From: a virus
IMG/VR virus record: IMGVR_UViG_3300046167_000884
Coordinates: 56,009 to 120,008 of that record
DNA: 64,000 bases
Strand: one strand, 5' to 3'
Part shown: positions 3,746 through 19,938 of the stretch, one piece after another
Layout: the number at the start of each line of letters is the position of its first letter
How positions within the stretch are numbered: position 1 is the stretch's first letter
The notes under the pieces: model-generated
Databases searched by the model: none
The model's input: the letters and a program-made list of their open reading frames with translations, nothing else
What the model was told of the DNA's origin: nothing
Position numbers and translations under genes: made by a program

Positions 3746-4930
3746 ATGTGTAACTGCGGATGTAATACTTGCGAAACTAAAACAAAAGGACCTTTACTTA
3801 CTGAAAGTAAAGTTAAATCTTTATTATCCGAAGGTCTACAATATCACATAGATAAAAAAATACCATTATTTGAAACAGTATATCGTATTGGTTCAGATAA
3901 ACATCTAGCCTTAATTAAAGAAGCTAGAAAAATGTATTCACGTAACATAATTGATTTATGTGAAGATGATGAAGCACTAATTAAAACACATTTAGGTGAA
4001 TTTGCTTTATATGAAGGTGAATCTGTACCATTAGATTTACCTATGTTAAATGAATCAGATTCTAACTATCCAGATTTTGATTTAAATAAAAACATAAGAT
4101 ACAAAGATACATCTATTTCAAGCGGAATGTGGAGATATACAGGTCAAGAACAAGGTGGAAAAGGCGTTTATAGAAATTTAAATAATGATCAAATATTAGC
4201 TTTTGATAGAAGTGATTTTGATATATTTAAAAACAATCTTGGTAGTCATTTTGATATTTCAGAATCATTAAATGAATTTTCATTACCTAAATTTGATGTA
4301 GTAAAACCTATTATTGATAAATTTTTAGGTGGGATAGAAAAAGCTGGTAAAAAACTATTACAAATAGTTAAACGAGAAGGTAAACAGACTTTAGTATTAA
4401 TTAAAGAAATAGCCGAATACGTAGTAAGTGGAGAAAAACCAACATCATCTGAACAGAAAAAAATTACAGAACAATTAAAGGATTTAGGTTTTTTAGCTTT
4501 TTTAGGAATAGCAGGTAATATTCCTTTTTCATTATTTTCTATAATTTATTTTATAATAGATGAATCAGGCATAGCTAAAGAATTTTTAAAATTAAATGAG
4601 TCATTAAATGAAGATGAACAATTAGACGAAAAGAAAAAGGCTAAGAAAAAAGAAAAAAAAGACCCACCATTAAATAAACCAAAACGTGGTGGTTCTAAAG
4701 CATATTATGTTTATGTACGTGATCCTAAAACTAAAAAAATTAAAAAAGTATCATTTGGATCCGGTGGTTTAAGAGCTAAAATTAAAAACAAAGAAGCTCG
4801 TACTGCATTTGCCGCTAGACATAATTGTAAAAATAAAAAAGATAGAACTAAAGCAGGATATTGGTCATGTAATTTACCAAGATACGCTCCAGCATTAGGA
4901 TTAGGTGCTAAAATGAATACTTTTTGGTAG
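3746..4930 (+). CDS. Modular protein: Cys-rich N-terminus, hydrophobic middle, basic phage C-terminal domain
   Basis: The product has 394 residues in several modules. The first nine residues are MCNCGCNTC, four cysteines in CxC style. Next come two LxE sites (PLLTES, SLLSEG) of prohead-protease type. Residues about 245-275 are hydrophobic (FLAFLGIAGNIPFSLFSII) and may form a membrane segment. Residues about 290-310 are almost all Lys/Glu. The last 85 residues are a compact basic domain (YYVYVRDPKTKKIKKVSFG, FAARHNC, AGYWSCNLPRYA) that I recognise as a recurrent C-terminal module fused to diverse proteins in marine phages. Its charge suggests nucleic-acid binding or DNA packaging. The function is not known. 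Confidence 0.7.
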   Translation: MCNCGCNTCETKTKGPLLTESKVKSLLSEGLQYHIDKKIPLFETVYRIGSDKHLALIKEARKMYSRNIIDLCEDDEALIKTHLGEFALYEGESVPLDLPMLNESDSNYPDFDLNKNIRYKDTSISSGMWRYTGQEQGGKGVYRNLNNDQILAFDRSDFDIFKNNLGSHFDISESLNEFSLPKFDVVKPIIDKFLGGIEKAGKKLLQIVKREGKQTLVLIKEIAEYVVSGEKPTSSEQKKITEQLKDLGFLAFLGIAGNIPFSLFSIIYFIIDESGIAKEFLKLNESLNEDEQLDEKKKAKKKEKKDPPLNKPKRGGSKAYYVYVRDPKTKKIKKVSFGSGGLRAKIKNKEARTAFAARHNCKNKKDRTKAGYWSCNLPRYAPALGLGAKMNTFW

Positions 4931-5712: not shown

Positions 5713-5960
5713 TGAACCCATACAAAAATAAAGGTAACATAAGAACGTTTTCGAAAGATGTAAATAAACTAGAACTAGTTTGGCATCAAGACGCTGAAGA
5801 TAGAGATATCGAAGTATTAGAAGGCAAAGGATGGGAATTACAAATGGATAATGAATTACCCTTTGAATTAGTAAAGGGAGATCGTATATTTATAACAGAA
5901 GGTAGAATACACCGAATATTAAAAGGCATAACAGATTTAAAAATAAAAATAAATGGATAA
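5712..5960 (+). CDS. Small cupin-like protein
   Basis: The product has 82 residues starting at the ATG that overlaps the preceding stop (TAATG); the longer in-frame extension would overlap the upstream gene and is unlikely. The core reads like a single-domain cupin: LVWHQDAEDRDIEVLEGKGW, then DNELPFELVKGDRIFI and GRIHRILKG, with His, Asp and Glu where a cupin would bind metal. I recall similar small cupins in marine T4-like phages. Substrate and role are unknown. It overlaps the first tagged cassette gene by 8 bases. Confidence 0.6.
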   Translation: MNPYKNKGNIRTFSKDVNKLELVWHQDAEDRDIEVLEGKGWELQMDNELPFELVKGDRIFITEGRIHRILKGITDLKIKING

Positions 5961-6246
5961 CTTTAATTTAAGAAAATATTTAGCTGAAGGAAAATTACAT
6001 GAAGAACAAGTAATGGGATATGCTGTACTTATAAATGGTAAATTCTATAATAATAAAGTATACAAATCAGAATCAGTAGCTAATGGACAGTTAACTACAT
6101 TACTAGGTGATGTAAAAAGTGAATTAGGTCTTGAAGGTGGAAGAAAAGATCAATATTATTTTGGTACTAAAAAAGGAGATAAAGATTTAGAACAACGTTT
6201 AAAAGATTTAGAACAAGCTAAAGTAGTAGCTGTAACCTATAAATAA
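5953..6246 (+). CDS. Tagged cassette protein 1 (putative injected internal head protein)
   Basis: The product has 97 residues. It begins with the shared tag, here MDNFNLRKYLAEGKLHEEQ. By analogy with T4 internal proteins (MKTYQEFIAE tag, cleaved by gp21 after an L/I-x-E site), the prohead protease would cut after LAE at residue 12. The remainder is a small alpha/beta domain (GYAVLINGKFYNNKVYKSES) ending in a charged helix (DKDLEQRLKDLEQAK). I do not recognise that domain. This is the most divergent full-length tag, with N for D at position 5 and R for K at position 7. It overlaps the cupin gene and is followed after 6 bases by the next cassette gene. Confidence 0.75.
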   Translation: MDNFNLRKYLAEGKLHEEQVMGYAVLINGKFYNNKVYKSESVANGQLTTLLGDVKSELGLEGGRKDQYYFGTKKGDKDLEQRLKDLEQAKVVAVTYK

Positions 6247-6252
6247 AAATAA

Positions 6253-6894
6253 ATGGATAACTTCGATTTAAAAAAATATTTAGCTGAAGGTCGCTTATTT
6301 AAAGAAGAAATAGACTACCCATCTATTAAAGATGAAATGAAAAAAATATATGATATAGATGTAGATCTAGATACCATTAAAGATTTTGTTACATCATATA
6401 ATGATAGTGAGGGTATGGATGTATTTGATACAACGGAACGAGAAGATTTTTATTTATATTTAAAAGATTTAGCTGAAGGCCTCTTATTTGAAGAAGAACA
6501 ATGGTTTGATCCCTCTAGCCCTTCACACGGTAAAGGATATAAAGTATTAGGCGATAAACCACAAGAAGGTGCTTTTTATGTAAGTGGATATGATTTTGAT
6601 AATGATAAAAGCTTTGAATATTATGTACTTGATCCTAATTATAATAAATACCTTACTGCTACCCAAGAATTATTAGGTCTTGCTGATGAACAGGGACACG
6701 AGTATGAAAGTATAGAACAGTATTATGATACAGTTAAAGCTTTTCAAAATGATTTAAGATCTTATGCTAAAGGAGGTAAGTTCGAAGGTGATGAGGTACC
6801 TAATTGGCTTATGCAAGATCTTGCTATGAGTTTTGGAACTGATTATGACCAATTTTATAGTGATGATGAAGACGAAGACGAAGACGATTATTAA
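6253..6894 (+). CDS. Tagged cassette protein 2, with a second internal tag-like site
   Basis: The product has 213 residues. The N-terminal tag is MDNFDLKKYLAEGRLFKEE. A small helical module (residues about 20-65) leads to a second tag-like stretch, YLKDLAEGLLFEEE, at residues 69-82, which again carries LAE before G. Cleavage at both would release a module of about 63 residues and a C-terminal domain of about 138 residues. The latter contains SHGKGYKVLGDKPQEGAFYV and ends in an acidic DDEDEDEDDY run. I do not recognise either domain. The layout suggests fusion of two once-separate tagged cassettes. Confidence 0.75.
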   Translation: MDNFDLKKYLAEGRLFKEEIDYPSIKDEMKKIYDIDVDLDTIKDFVTSYNDSEGMDVFDTTEREDFYLYLKDLAEGLLFEEEQWFDPSSPSHGKGYKVLGDKPQEGAFYVSGYDFDNDKSFEYYVLDPNYNKYLTATQELLGLADEQGHEYESIEQYYDTVKAFQNDLRSYAKGGKFEGDEVPNWLMQDLAMSFGTDYDQFYSDDEDEDEDDY

Positions 6895-6912
6895 AAATAA
6901 AATTAAAATAAA

Positions 6913-7464
6913 ATGGATAATTTCGATTTAAAAAAATATTTAGCTGAAGGAAGACTATTTGAAGAAGATTTTAAAAATCCAATTCTAGATAAATATTTAG
7001 AACTAAAAAAATCAGTAGATAACAATACAGCTTTTGAGTATGAACTATCAGATTTTATTAATGGTTTAGATAATACTGAACGTGAGGGATTAGAAAGCGA
7101 TTTAGGATTAGAAAGAGATGAGTTATATGAAGGTCGCTTATTAAAAGAAGAGATAATGGTTGACACCACTATTATGTTTGGTGGTAATGACTATATTAAA
7201 GATGTACTTACATCACCTGATGATTTTGGCTTTGATGAAGAAGATGCTGAATGGATTAAAAGTAATATTTTAACTGCTCCTAAAATGGTATCTATTGAAG
7301 ATTACATGGCTTTAGAGGATAAGTGGGTAGAACAAGCAGATTTAGATGTTGGAACAGGAGCAGATCGTGAGTCTGTTCTAGATGCTATTGATGTTCATAT
7401 TAAACAAGGATTAATAACTCCTGAAGAAGGAGAAGAAGCTAAAAAAATAGCACTAAAATTTTAA
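6913..7464 (+). CDS. Tagged cassette protein 3, with a second internal tag-like site
   Basis: The product has 183 residues with the N-terminal tag MDNFDLKKYLAEGRLFEED. Residues 20-70 form a helical module that resembles the first module of the preceding protein; both end in an NTERE or TTERE segment. It runs into a tag remnant, LYEGRLLKEE, at residues 71-80. Its DNA (from about 7123) is nearly identical to the matching part of the tag at 7783. The C-terminal 100 residues are acidic and unrecognised (TIMFGGNDYIKDVLTSPDDF). This is the second example of two tagged modules in one frame. Confidence 0.75.
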   Translation: MDNFDLKKYLAEGRLFEEDFKNPILDKYLELKKSVDNNTAFEYELSDFINGLDNTEREGLESDLGLERDELYEGRLLKEEIMVDTTIMFGGNDYIKDVLTSPDDFGFDEEDAEWIKSNILTAPKMVSIEDYMALEDKWVEQADLDVGTGADRESVLDAIDVHIKQGLITPEEGEEAKKIALKF

Positions 7465-7469
7465 AATAA

Positions 7470-7781
7470 ATGGATAACTTTGATCTAAAAAAATATTTAG
7501 CTGAAGGTAAATTATATGAACAAAAATCTCCTAAATTTAAAATAGGTGATTTTGTTCAACCTAAAAGCCGAGATAAATATGTAGGCCAAATTGAAGATGT
7601 TTATATTAATAAACCTGAAAATTTAGAAATAAAAGATGGTGAATATGTTTATTCAGTTGATAAATTAAATCACAGAGGAAAAGATGCAATGTCATTTGAT
7701 TTTAAAGAATCAGATTTAGAATCAATATCTGACCCAACTGAATATATAAAAAGTTTAACACCATATAAAAGAAGAAACTAA
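7470..7781 (+). CDS. Tagged cassette protein 4, SH3-like
   Basis: The product has 103 residues. The tag is MDNFDLKKYLAEGKLYEQK. After it comes FKIGDFVQPKSRDKYVGQI, a pattern typical of a small SH3/KOW-like beta barrel, followed by YVYSVDKLNHRGKDAMSFDF and a basic end (YKRRN). A similar barrel-like sequence occurs at the C-terminus of the large protein at the start of the window. After proteolysis of the tag the mature protein would be about 91 residues, in the size range of T4 internal proteins. The function is unknown; binding to a host protein or nucleic acid is possible but not shown. Confidence 0.7.
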   Translation: MDNFDLKKYLAEGKLYEQKSPKFKIGDFVQPKSRDKYVGQIEDVYINKPENLEIKDGEYVYSVDKLNHRGKDAMSFDFKESDLESISDPTEYIKSLTPYKRRN

Positions 7782-7782
7782 A

Positions 7783-8364
7783 ATGGATAATTTCGATTTA
7801 AAAAAATATTTAGCGGAAGGCCGCTTATTAAAAGAAGAATTAACTTTTTCTTTTGACGAATATAGCTATGAAATTGATGATGATGCCTATCAAGCAGAAG
7901 TAGAGGCAGGTATTAAAACTCAATTACCAAACATCTCAGATAAAGTTTTACAAGCAATCATAGATAGTTCTGTAGAATACTATTATGATCAAAGAGAAGA
8001 AGATGTACCTTCTAGTGATATCGTAGATATGGCAGTTGATTATTATAATGATGAAATGACTGGAGGCAGTAAACCATCTGCTCCAAGTCAAAAATATGAT
8101 TTATCTAGTGTTGATTTAAGTGGATTAGATAAAGGCCAAAAAGAAGCTTTTGATAAATTTGTAGATATTTACCTTAAACCTTATGGTGATACTGATGCAC
8201 AAGAAGATTTAGAACGCTACGTTAGACAATTTGGAAAAGTAGAAAATGCATACGATCTTGATTCTCTAATCCCAAACTCATTTCAGTACGACAGGGAGGA
8301 AAGGGAAGCTATGCAACTTCAATTGAGAAGAGCTTATTTAGATGATGATCAACCTATAAACTAA
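7783..8364 (+). CDS. Tagged cassette protein 5, acidic
   Basis: The product has 193 residues with the tag MDNFDLKKYLAEGRLLKEE. The rest is strongly acidic and mostly helical. One half is rich in Asp and Tyr (EYYYDQREEDVPSSDIVDMA). A Gly/Ser/Pro linker (TGGSKPSAPSQ) follows, then a second helical half (LDKGQKEAFDKFVDIYLKPY). High negative charge is a feature of DNA-mimic anti-restriction proteins, and T4 internal protein I blocks a restriction enzyme, but no specific family is recognisable. It starts one base after the previous stop and is followed by the Cys-rich mini-gene. Confidence 0.72.
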   Translation: MDNFDLKKYLAEGRLLKEELTFSFDEYSYEIDDDAYQAEVEAGIKTQLPNISDKVLQAIIDSSVEYYYDQREEDVPSSDIVDMAVDYYNDEMTGGSKPSAPSQKYDLSSVDLSGLDKGQKEAFDKFVDIYLKPYGDTDAQEDLERYVRQFGKVENAYDLDSLIPNSFQYDREEREAMQLQLRRAYLDDDQPIN

Positions 8365-8370
8365 TATATT

Positions 8371-8436
8371 ATGAAATGTAATTGTAAAGTATGTAATTGC
8401 GGAACATCATGTGGATGTGATTGCTGTAATTGTTAA
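8371..8436 (+). CDS. Cys-rich 21-residue peptide (metallothionein-like)
   Basis: A short frame from ATG 8371 to TAA 8434-8436 encodes 21 residues, nine of them cysteine, at positions 3, 5, 8, 10, 14, 16, 18, 19 and 21. They fall in CxC units (CNC, CNC, CGC, CDC, CNC), the metal-binding pattern of metallothioneins. The other residues are mostly Lys, Asn, Gly and Asp. The gene sits 6 bases after one tagged gene and 13 bases before the next, inside the cassette, and begins after an A/T-rich leader. The residue pattern is too biased to be chance read-through. It resembles the MCNCGCNTC start of the 394-residue protein at 3746. Metal or redox binding is inferred. Confidence 0.55.
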   Translation: MKCNCKVCNCGTSCGCDCCNC

Positions 8437-8449
8437 AATATAAAATAAA

Positions 8450-8971
8450 ATGGACAATTTTGATTTAAAAAAATATTTAGCTGAAGGTAGGCTATTAAAA
8501 GAAAATATAGATATGGCTACAATACTTAGCCATGATGATTATAAAGAACTTTATATAGGAAATAGAGCTGAACATGATGCTTCTCCTGAAGAAGAACAAT
8601 TCAGTGATGAATATATAATTGACCTTAAACCAGGAATGTACCACATGATATTTTGGAATGATGAAGGTCCTGATTATAATGTTTATAATAGCAAAGAAGA
8701 ATATATAAAAGATTCTATTGTAAGTTTTTGGGACATCGAACACTTTGAAAGAAAATTTGGACTTACAGATGAATTAGATGCAGCTGGAGATAATTGGGAA
8801 AGTGTTTTTAATAAACATATAGAAGATAATTTAGATATGTATTATGAAGAACTAAATAGACTTATTAACAATTCAGAAGCTGATGGTGATTCAGCTAATG
8901 GGGTTGTTCTTTTACAAAATGGTAAAGTAGTAGCTGGTGAAGCAACTAATATAAGCAGAAGATTTGATTAA
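8450..8971 (+). CDS. Tagged cassette protein 6
   Basis: The product has 173 residues with the tag MDNFDLKKYLAEGRLLKEN. The mature part is acidic: SHDDYKELYIGNRAEHDASP, then a Tyr/Trp-containing region (MYHMIFWNDEGPDYNVYNSK) and helical DELDAAGDNWESVFNKHIED, ending with VVLLQNGKVVAGEATNISRR. I do not recognise the domain. It is the last complete member of the series. A truncated tag copy begins 7 bases after its stop. Confidence 0.72.
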   Translation: MDNFDLKKYLAEGRLLKENIDMATILSHDDYKELYIGNRAEHDASPEEEQFSDEYIIDLKPGMYHMIFWNDEGPDYNVYNSKEEYIKDSIVSFWDIEHFERKFGLTDELDAAGDNWESVFNKHIEDNLDMYYEELNRLINNSEADGDSANGVVLLQNGKVVAGEATNISRRFD

Positions 8972-8977
8972 ACTAAA

Positions 8978-9013
8978 ATGGATAATTTTGATTTTAAAAA
9001 ACATATAGGATAG
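8978..9013 (+). pseudogene. Truncated tag copy (relic of a seventh cassette)
   Basis: ATG 8978 opens a frame reading MDNFDFKKHIG and then TAG at 9011-9013. The first eight residues match the shared tag except F for L at position 6, and the frame ends where the LAE site should be. The leader AAACTAAA before it matches the other copies. It looks like the remains of a cassette deleted at its tag, at the right-hand border of the repeat array. A hairpin and terminator follow directly. Confidence 0.6.
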
Positions 9014-9052
9014 ATTCATAGCCTATCCGATTAGAAATAATTAAAGAGATCT

Positions 9053-9074
9053 GTGGCCTCCATTTGGAGGTCAC
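9053..9074 (+). terminator. Hairpin terminator closing the tagged cassette
   Basis: GTGGCCTCC (9053-9061) and GGAGGTCAC (9066-9074) form a 9-bp stem with one G-T wobble and an ATTT loop, followed by ATTTAAGTTT. A second inverted repeat, GGATAG (9008-9013) with CTATCC (9023-9028), lies just upstream. Together they separate the cassette operon from the next promoter. The U-tract is weak. Confidence 0.6.
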
Positions 9075-9081
9075 ATTTAAG

Positions 9082-9116: not shown

Positions 9117-9272
9117 ATGGATATAGATAAAGAATTTTATTTAGTAAGAAAAAATGAAGGTAATTCATTTCAAAGATTAATGATGTTTTTTTTAGAACAA
9201 AACAAAAAACATGGTGCAGATTTCGGAGTAGCAGGAATGTATAATACTTTAAATAGATTTTATGGTGAGTAA
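9117..9272 (+). CDS. Small 51-aa protein preceding the oxidoreductase
   Basis: ATG 9117 to TAA 9270-9272 encodes 51 residues beginning MDIDKEFYLVRKNEGNSFQR and ending TLNRFYGE. It is mixed helical with no signal peptide or recognised domain. It lies directly after a promoter-like box and overlaps the oxidoreductase start by about 11 bases, the usual arrangement of coupled phage genes. No function can be assigned. Confidence 0.55.
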   Translation: MDIDKEFYLVRKNEGNSFQRLMMFFLEQNKKHGADFGVAGMYNTLNRFYGE

Positions 9273-10569
9273 AAACGTAGTAATGATTGGAGCAGGTGTA
9301 GCAAATGTAAATGCTGCTACCAAGCTAGTTGACAATGGGTTTAAAGGTAAAATCACTATTATTGATATGGGTAAAGACCCATATTTAAGACCTTATGAAG
9401 AGGTAATGACAGGTTTCCTAGGAGCAGGAGGTTGGTCTGATGGTAAATTAACTTATCATACTTCAATTGGAGGGCAATTATCTAAATATTGTGGTGAAGA
9501 AAAAGCAATGGAATTATTTGATCAGGTGATAGATAATTTTAAACGATTCCATCCTAAACCAGAAGAGGTACAATGCTCAAATCCAGTTGCAGAACCAGAT
9601 TTTATTAAACCATATTTCGGTTTACGTTTATTCCCTGTATGGCACGTTGGTACAGATTATTTACATGAGATTGGTAAAAATTGGTATGATTTCTTAGTTG
9701 ATAATGGTGTAGAATTTATTTGGGAAACTAAAGTATATGCTATTGATTTTGTAAATGAAAGGGTATTAGGTAAATCATTAATTAAAGATTTAGAATATGA
9801 ACGTAGGTATGATAAACTCATATTTGGTGTAGGTAAATCAGGTATTGATTTTGGTAAACAATTAGCAGAGGAATATGATCTGCCAACTGAATCTAAACCA
9901 GTACAAATAGGTGTTAGATTTGAAGCACCACAAAAACACTTTCAAAAATTAATTGATGTAAGCTATGATTTCAAATTATATAGAAAATATGAAGACAAAG
10001 GCGTATCACTACGTTCATTCTGTACAAATAATAATGCAGCTTATGTTGCCGTTGAGGAAACATATGGAGATCACAGTTACAATGGACACGCTAAAAAAGA
10101 TGAAGCATTCCGAAATGATATGACCAATTTTGGTATATTAATGGAAGTACAAGGTATTGATAAACCATTTGATTGGTCAAGAGAAGTAGTTAAAAACTTA
10201 CAAATAGATGGTACAGGATTATATTATAGCCCAACACGTAAACCCTCTACAACATCTGAAGGTGTAAATGTATCAGCTATTCAAGTAGATACATTACATA
10301 AAATAGCAAAATCAATGCAACCATACTTTATGTATGTATATGATTTTATTGAGGACATGAAAAAAGTGTTTCCAACATTAAAAGACGATTGGGGTATTTA
10401 TGTACCTGAAGTAAAATATCTATCACCTGAGCCACTTGTCGATTATACCAATTTAGCACTCACCAAGTATCCTAACGTACACTTCGTAGGCGATGCTTTA
10501 TCAGCTAGAGGTATAACGGTAAGTGGTGCACAAGGGACATATGTTGCTGAATCACTTTTGGAGAACTAA
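9262..10569 (+). CDS. FAD-dependent oxidoreductase (COG2509-like)
   Basis: The product has 435 residues. The N-terminus VVMIGAGVANVNAATKLVDN is a Rossmann FAD-binding loop, although the usual third Gly is Asn. Near residue 50, FLGAGGWSDGKLTY matches the GGxSDGKL motif of the COG2509 family of uncharacterised FAD dehydrogenases. The C-terminus (NVHFVGDALSARGITVSGAQ, then GTYVAE) is the second FAD-contact segment. The reaction and substrate are unknown. It is a metabolic-type gene with no obvious partner in the window, on a short operon with a TTCGTATATT box. The start could be ATG 9262 or the following GTG at 9265. Confidence 0.8.
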   Translation: MVSKNVVMIGAGVANVNAATKLVDNGFKGKITIIDMGKDPYLRPYEEVMTGFLGAGGWSDGKLTYHTSIGGQLSKYCGEEKAMELFDQVIDNFKRFHPKPEEVQCSNPVAEPDFIKPYFGLRLFPVWHVGTDYLHEIGKNWYDFLVDNGVEFIWETKVYAIDFVNERVLGKSLIKDLEYERRYDKLIFGVGKSGIDFGKQLAEEYDLPTESKPVQIGVRFEAPQKHFQKLIDVSYDFKLYRKYEDKGVSLRSFCTNNNAAYVAVEETYGDHSYNGHAKKDEAFRNDMTNFGILMEVQGIDKPFDWSREVVKNLQIDGTGLYYSPTRKPSTTSEGVNVSAIQVDTLHKIAKSMQPYFMYVYDFIEDMKKVFPTLKDDWGIYVPEVKYLSPEPLVDYTNLALTKYPNVHFVGDALSARGITVSGAQGTYVAESLLEN

Positions 10570-19329: not shown

Positions 19330-19938
19330 ATGGGTAAAACACTCTTAATAGAAACTAATACCTTTAAATTATCATCACCTTTATTAACTGAAAATGTTAA
19401 TAAGGATAATGGTAATGTTTTAGTTGAGGGTATTTTAGCTACAGCTGAAGTAAAAAATGGTAATGGTCGTTACTATTCAAAAGAATTATGGCAACGCGAA
19501 ATGGATAAATATAATGAGCTTATTGAACAAAGACGCTCAATGGGAGAATTAGACCACCCAGAATCCACTGTTGTAAATTTAAAAAATGTTTCTCATATTA
19601 TAAATGAATACTGGTGGGATGGAGACCAAGTAATGGGTAAAATTGAAATATTACCTACCCCATCGGGTAACATACTTAAAGAACTTATTAAAAATGGGTG
19701 TACTGTAGGAGTATCATCTAGAGGTATGGGTTCATTAGAACAAAGGGGTGAAATAATGGAAGTACAAGATGACTTTGAATTATTATGTTGGGATTTTGTT
19801 TCAACTCCTTCAAACCCTGGTTCTTATATGCATGAAATTCTTAAAGAAGGTAAAGAAAATTACACTTACGATTATACAAATGTTAATAAATTAATACATG
19901 AAATTCTTTGTTCAAAAGGATCATGTCCTATAACTTAA
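19330..19938 (+). CDS. gp21: Prohead protease (T4 gp21-like)
   Basis: The product has 202 residues. It is a serine protease that cleaves prohead proteins after L/I-x-E during capsid maturation. The catalytic His lies in MGELDHPEST (about residue 79), the catalytic Ser in VGVSSRGMGS (about 137), and the conserved LLCWDFVSTPSNPGS follows. The N-terminus has two LxE sites of its own (TLLIETN, PLLTENV), consistent with self-processing. It sits directly before scaffold and capsid genes as in T4, and is followed by a terminator. It is the enzyme expected to process the tagged cassette proteins at 5953-8971. Confidence 0.92.
   Translation: MGKTLLIETNTFKLSSPLLTENVNKDNGNVLVEGILATAEVKNGNGRYYSKELWQREMDKYNELIEQRRSMGELDHPESTVVNLKNVSHIINEYWWDGDQVMGKIEILPTPSGNILKELIKNGCTVGVSSRGMGSLEQRGEIMEVQDDFELLCWDFVSTPSNPGSYMHEILKEGKENYTYDYTNVNKLIHEILCSKGSCPIT

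Follow-up and report, generated by a model that had tools for sequence, protein, structure and literature searches.

The open reading frame at positions 8371 to 8436 (plus strand) of the window, the whole 64-kb stretch of viral DNA analyzed here, is a genuine, strongly conserved gene under purifying selection. It runs from ATG to TAA and encodes a 21-residue peptide with nine cysteines, MKCNCKVCNCGTSCGCDCCNC, exactly the frame that the first-pass annotation had singled out; its suggestion of a metallothionein-like minigene is borne out as regards a real and selected gene by fixed cysteine spacing, synonymous-only change at cysteine codons, and many relatives. On the evidence of sequence comparison, we think it likely that the gene is functional and specifies a minimal metallothionein-like peptide of one domain, which phages and their hosts would share as a metal or thiol buffer and which is probably expressed late.

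The gene stands between two members of a cassette whose products share an N-terminal tag, MDNF[DN]L[KR]KYLAEG, found on six genes in the 64-kb window. The upstream gene (7783 to 8364, plus strand; MDNFDLKKYLAEGRL..., a putative capsid-targeting N terminus) stops 6 nt before the peptide's ATG and the downstream one (8450 to 8971, plus strand; MDNFDLKKYLAEGRL...) starts 13 nt after its stop, so the spacing is as normal as had been claimed. Four more tagged genes of the same cassette, with starts at 5953, 6253, 6913, and 7470, fill positions 5953 to 7781 of the same strand, and a T4-type prohead core protease (Peptidase_S77; 19330 to 19938, plus strand) would be responsible for processing the tags. 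A remnant tagged ORF, MDNFDFKKHIG followed by a stop, lies at 8978 to 9013 and has the look of a tagged gene that has decayed or been truncated; its stop overlaps the stem of a hairpin described below. The 120,008-base viral record that contains the window encodes a T4-type portal, terminase, gp23, and S77 prohead protease, its nearest named phages by portal are the Flavobacterium immuto phages (56% identity), and the peptide gene is present once across its whole length.

Relatives of the gene are numerous in IMG/VR, where we count at least 147 viral copies at no fewer than about 112 distinct loci, with at least 98 distinct peptides. The set was built from neighbor-gene loci, pattern scans, and a flavoprotein scan, and ten further copies were already present in loci fetched by similarity to the neighboring tagged gene. 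Scanning IMG/VR and GTDB by pattern also picks up many poly-Cys frames from simple repeats; the raw matches were therefore screened by their translations, and the resulting counts are lower bounds. The spacing CxCxxCxCxxxCxCxCCxC holds in all of the at least 147 viral copies and the stop follows directly after the last cysteine in nearly all, giving the family consensus M-x(0-2)-C-[ND]-C-x2-C-x-C-G-x-S-C-x-C-x-C-C-[ND]-C-stop. Because the pattern scans demand nine cysteines, invariance is there by construction, and we draw the claim of nine-Cys invariance from the neighbor-fetched loci and the profile-fetched host copies only. In the 1.44 Mb of loci fetched by neighboring genes only, 20 of 20 family copies keep the exact spacing, while just two other short ORFs have seven or more cysteines, both of them chance-like.

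Selection is evident within these copies. In the neighbor-fetched, unbiased phage sequences the cysteine codons show silent change only (pS 0.58, pN 0), which answers the synonymous versus nonsynonymous comparison proposed earlier, and the stops or frameshifts in related genomes that had been named as grounds for abandoning the frame were sought and not found: a DNA-profile search of all collected loci returned no stopped, frameshifted, or decayed copies. Whole-core pN/pS is 0.35 in phages and 0.31 in hosts. Among 5,593 pairs with unrelated flanks, identity is 72% in the core versus 30 to 34% in the flanks, and third codon positions are the most variable in the core. Two non-Cys positions are nearly fixed, Gly9 (140/148) and Ser11 (132/148), in an alignment of 148 rows that includes one host copy. 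The start context is A rich: position −3 is A in 88%, and Shine-Dalgarno sequences are nearly absent. Such starts are consistent with Bacteroidetes-type initiation.

All seven near-complete carrier records (136 to 211 kb) encode Portal_T4, and each near-complete record has one copy of the peptide gene except L146, where a tandem double-module version, MRNRQNCNCENCKCQKACNCMKCNCSKSCDCACCDC, occurs (reverse strand, core at about 13230). A tblastn search with the 21-mer found no match in named phages, although the BLAST low-complexity filter may hide matches. Nor did the profile detect a copy in either of two complete records searched with it, those of Flavobacterium phage immuto and Microcystis phage Mel-JY01.

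The same peptide is encoded on the chromosomes of marine flavobacteria. One copy lies in a Cryomorphaceae metagenome-assembled genome (L312, the seed genome), and a profile search of 25 genomes from the genus to which it belongs detected the gene in 17, a lower bound because the genomes are partly incomplete. A second genus was positive in 2 of 22 genomes; profile matches occurred in 3 of 201 genomes of the family and in 1 of 396 phylum-wide, that one being the seed genome. Synteny is conserved in most of the 17 genomes: genes for a Na/Ca-exchanger-like product and a 120-aa protein flank the peptide gene on one side, and genes for a lipoprotein and a pirin-like protein flank it on the other. 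All nine cysteines, and a stop directly after the last, are kept in 19/19 host copies, across which the cysteine codons have a pS of 0.72 and a pN of 0. One host copy (L517) has ATA in place of the ATG start codon, the remaining peptide being intact. Since the peptide is a chromosomal gene of these small-genome bacteria, we infer that the phages probably acquired it from such hosts, or the reverse.

What the peptide does is suggested by its composition. Low-mass metallothioneins have about 20 to 45% cysteine in CxC, CxxC, and CC arrangements, and the peptide has 9 of 21 residues as cysteine with CxC and CC motifs; metallothionein cysteines are also conserved under selection, as those of the neighbor-fetched phage copies and the 19 host copies are, with synonymous change only. 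A 21-residue chain with nine thiols ordered as in metallothioneins, and with no histidine, suggests one metal-thiolate cluster, and metal binding by the peptide is likely. The nine cysteines, in their fixed spacing, would most likely enclose that single cluster, for which M(II)3Cys9 and Cu(I)-thiolate are among the candidate types. Probably translated late in infection with the neighboring head genes, the peptide would buffer or sequester a thiophilic metal (Zn, Cu, or Cd) during virion assembly, with some thiol or ROS scavenging alongside, and its use in the phage would be its use in the host, that of a metal or thiol buffer.

Profile searches against Pfam, PHROG, NCBIfam, and PDB returned no significant match to a known metallothionein family. 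The only matches that PDB and Pfam gave, wheat Ec (E = 3.2) and Metallothio_2 (E = 0.57 to 3.9), are metallothioneins, though neither reaches significance; the PF01439 scores fall well below the curated cutoff, and NCBIfam gave nothing. Two further points count against a metallothionein: presence is patchy, with about 11% of flavoprotein loci having the peptide, and the nine cysteines could instead serve redox chemistry.

In that alternative, which we regard as unlikely, the peptide would be a thiol buffer or disulfide-rich effector, perhaps working with a neighboring flavoprotein, rather than a holder of metal. The flavoprotein is an FAD/NAD(P)-binding oxidoreductase (9262 to 10569, plus strand; phrog_12409, "dehydrogenase") that matched at least 595 viral stretches and has distant relatives in Campylobacter phages, also annotated as dehydrogenase. 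It is a frequent downstream neighbor, lying within 2.5 kb in 71 of the 131 copies with enough downstream sequence, and in many relatives no gene intervenes between the peptide and the flavoprotein leader. The pair is nevertheless not obligate, since 57 of 64 flavoprotein loci lack the peptide in the scanned stretch and many carriers have no flavoprotein nearby. The CxC/CxxxC/CC clustering is moreover that of metallothioneins and not the CxxC pattern of redox proteins, and no signal peptide is visible, so that disulfides would not readily form in the cytoplasm.

The first-pass annotation had also described a peptide in an injected-protein cassette. The cassette part of that description stands, as copies lie in or adjoin cassettes of capsid-targeting-like genes in unrelated T4-like phages. 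Sites of the form [hydrophobic]-x-E are typical of capsid-targeting propeptides, and they occur at the N termini of 54 of 91 immediate upstream genes versus 68 of 327 internal windows of the same proteins. The minigene thus tends to lie directly 3' of genes with capsid-targeting-like N termini, while its immediate upstream and downstream neighbor proteins form 61 clusters from many unrelated families. These neighbors, together with the encoded prohead protease, are what speaks for a peptide that is packaged in the virion and ejected along with the tagged internal proteins, so that the newly infected cell would receive metal or thiols. We give this idea little credence: in T4 IPIII a capsid-targeting sequence is required, the first 10 residues of the protein sufficing for head targeting (PMC9026906), and no family member has one, all starting M-x(0-2)-C or nearly so in place of a propeptide with an LxE site. 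The peptide itself therefore does not appear to be an injected protein, and the chromosomal host copies need no virion role.

A cysteine-rich N terminus occurs elsewhere in the window, on a 394-aa protein (3746 to 4930, plus strand) that does begin MCNCGCNTC, as reported earlier. Its claimed likeness to the peptide holds in that the cysteines are really conserved, with three or more in 40 of 61 distinct N termini of its homologues, but the motif is a different and shorter one, CxCGCxxC. In the window it is followed by the prohead-protease-like sites LTES and LSEG, and homologues retain it even when it is displaced inward, again followed by LTE and LSE sites (3746 to 3840 in the window). We do not claim homology, as the cysteine spacing differs from that of the peptide; this N terminus may be a second, separate Cys module, a propeptide removed by the prohead protease inside the prohead.

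The peptide could also be read as a cysteine-responsive leader, in which ribosome stalling at the cysteine codons would control a downstream gene via a hairpin and terminator. In many copies about 115 nt separate the peptide gene from the flavoprotein downstream, and such structures lie in that interval; mycobacteria offer a precedent in polycysteine leader sORFs, at least as PMC9094748 cites them (Canestrari 2020). In the window a conserved RNA-like element (9008 to 9078, plus strand) precedes the flavoprotein, comprising a hairpin with the invariant loop ATTCATAGC (9014 to 9022) on a 5-bp covarying stem, every pair of which shows compensatory changes (100% of cells paired), and a terminator-like hairpin (about 9052 to 9078) with invariant CTGTGGC and TTTGG. 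The CATAG of the loop is able to pair with the CTGTG of the terminator arm. No relevant Rfam family was found near the peptide gene or this element. The hairpin and terminator are present in 61 of 64 flavoprotein loci, among them L004, L044, L136, and L423, whereas the peptide was found within 1.5 kb upstream in 7 of the 64; because the structures are kept with or without the peptide, attenuation is disfavored, and the element is part of the flavoprotein leader and not of the peptide. Leader and terminator thus do not co-occur before one regulated gene: most other copies have unrelated downstream genes, and the host copies precede other genes. An attenuator would also need neither the exact cysteine spacing nor the conserved Gly and Ser, and the peptide gene closes a cassette rather than opening a transcript. 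We rate attenuation as highly improbable.

Short ORFs are frequent by chance in AT-rich DNA, but the probability of a frame without a product is negligible in view of the selection, spread, and host synteny described above, a maximum of six cysteines in any 21-residue stretch of ATG ORFs over 60 dinucleotide shuffles of the 64-kb window, and a probability of about 2e-10 under a composition model for nine or more cysteines in 20 codons.

If the peptide binds metal, these results would place a metallothionein gene in bacteriophages, of which we found no description in the open-access papers searched. It would be among the smallest metallothioneins known and shared with marine bacteria that retain very few genes, and marine T4-like phages would then be managing metal or thiol balance. 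The family also shows that annotation can overlook a large and conserved group of viral genes when each is 21 codons long, since neither Pfam, PHROG, nor NCBIfam has a model for it. As a more speculative proposal, which we hold tentatively and would not yet bet on, it would be an undescribed family of 21-residue, single-cluster metallothioneins common to T4-like marine phages and flavobacterial hosts; in phages it would be fixed in the packaged-protein cassette and control the metal or thiol supply in head assembly or takeover, with the CxCGCxxC propeptide as a second Cys module processed inside the prohead.

Several known systems share some of these features. As with T4 internal proteins, the products of the neighboring genes begin with short tags that resemble propeptides and contain LxE sites, and a prohead protease of the S77 type is encoded as well, but the Cys peptide itself is untagged. 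Like the mycobacterial polycysteine sORFs, as far as the citing article describes them, the ORF is short, rich in cysteine, and, at some loci only, placed upstream of an operon gene; unlike them, it has conserved exact spacing and Gly/Ser residues, varied contexts, and an RNA element that is independent of the ORF. The bacterial metallothioneins SmtA/BmtA and Pseudomonas PflQ2 have a GATA-type zinc-finger fold with Zn3-4Cys9His clusters (PMC7387436, PMC10612145), and the peptide resembles them in bacterial origin, nine cysteine ligands, and small size. It is not of the SmtA type: its consensus lacks a His ligand (a single position carries His, in just 4 of 148 copies, and the window peptide has none), 21 residues are too short for the zinc-finger fold, no Pfam or NCBIfam model matches, and no SmtB-type repressor operon was seen in the stretches read. 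Zn3Cys9 clusters are themselves present in known metallothioneins (PMC10612145). Wheat Ec-1 and other plant metallothioneins (PDB 2KAK; PF01439, Metallothio_2) are larger, multidomain proteins with no significant homology to the peptide, yet they share with it a C-G-x-x-C-x-C-x(1-2)-C style of cysteine clustering, which the phage peptide carries in a single 21-residue module.
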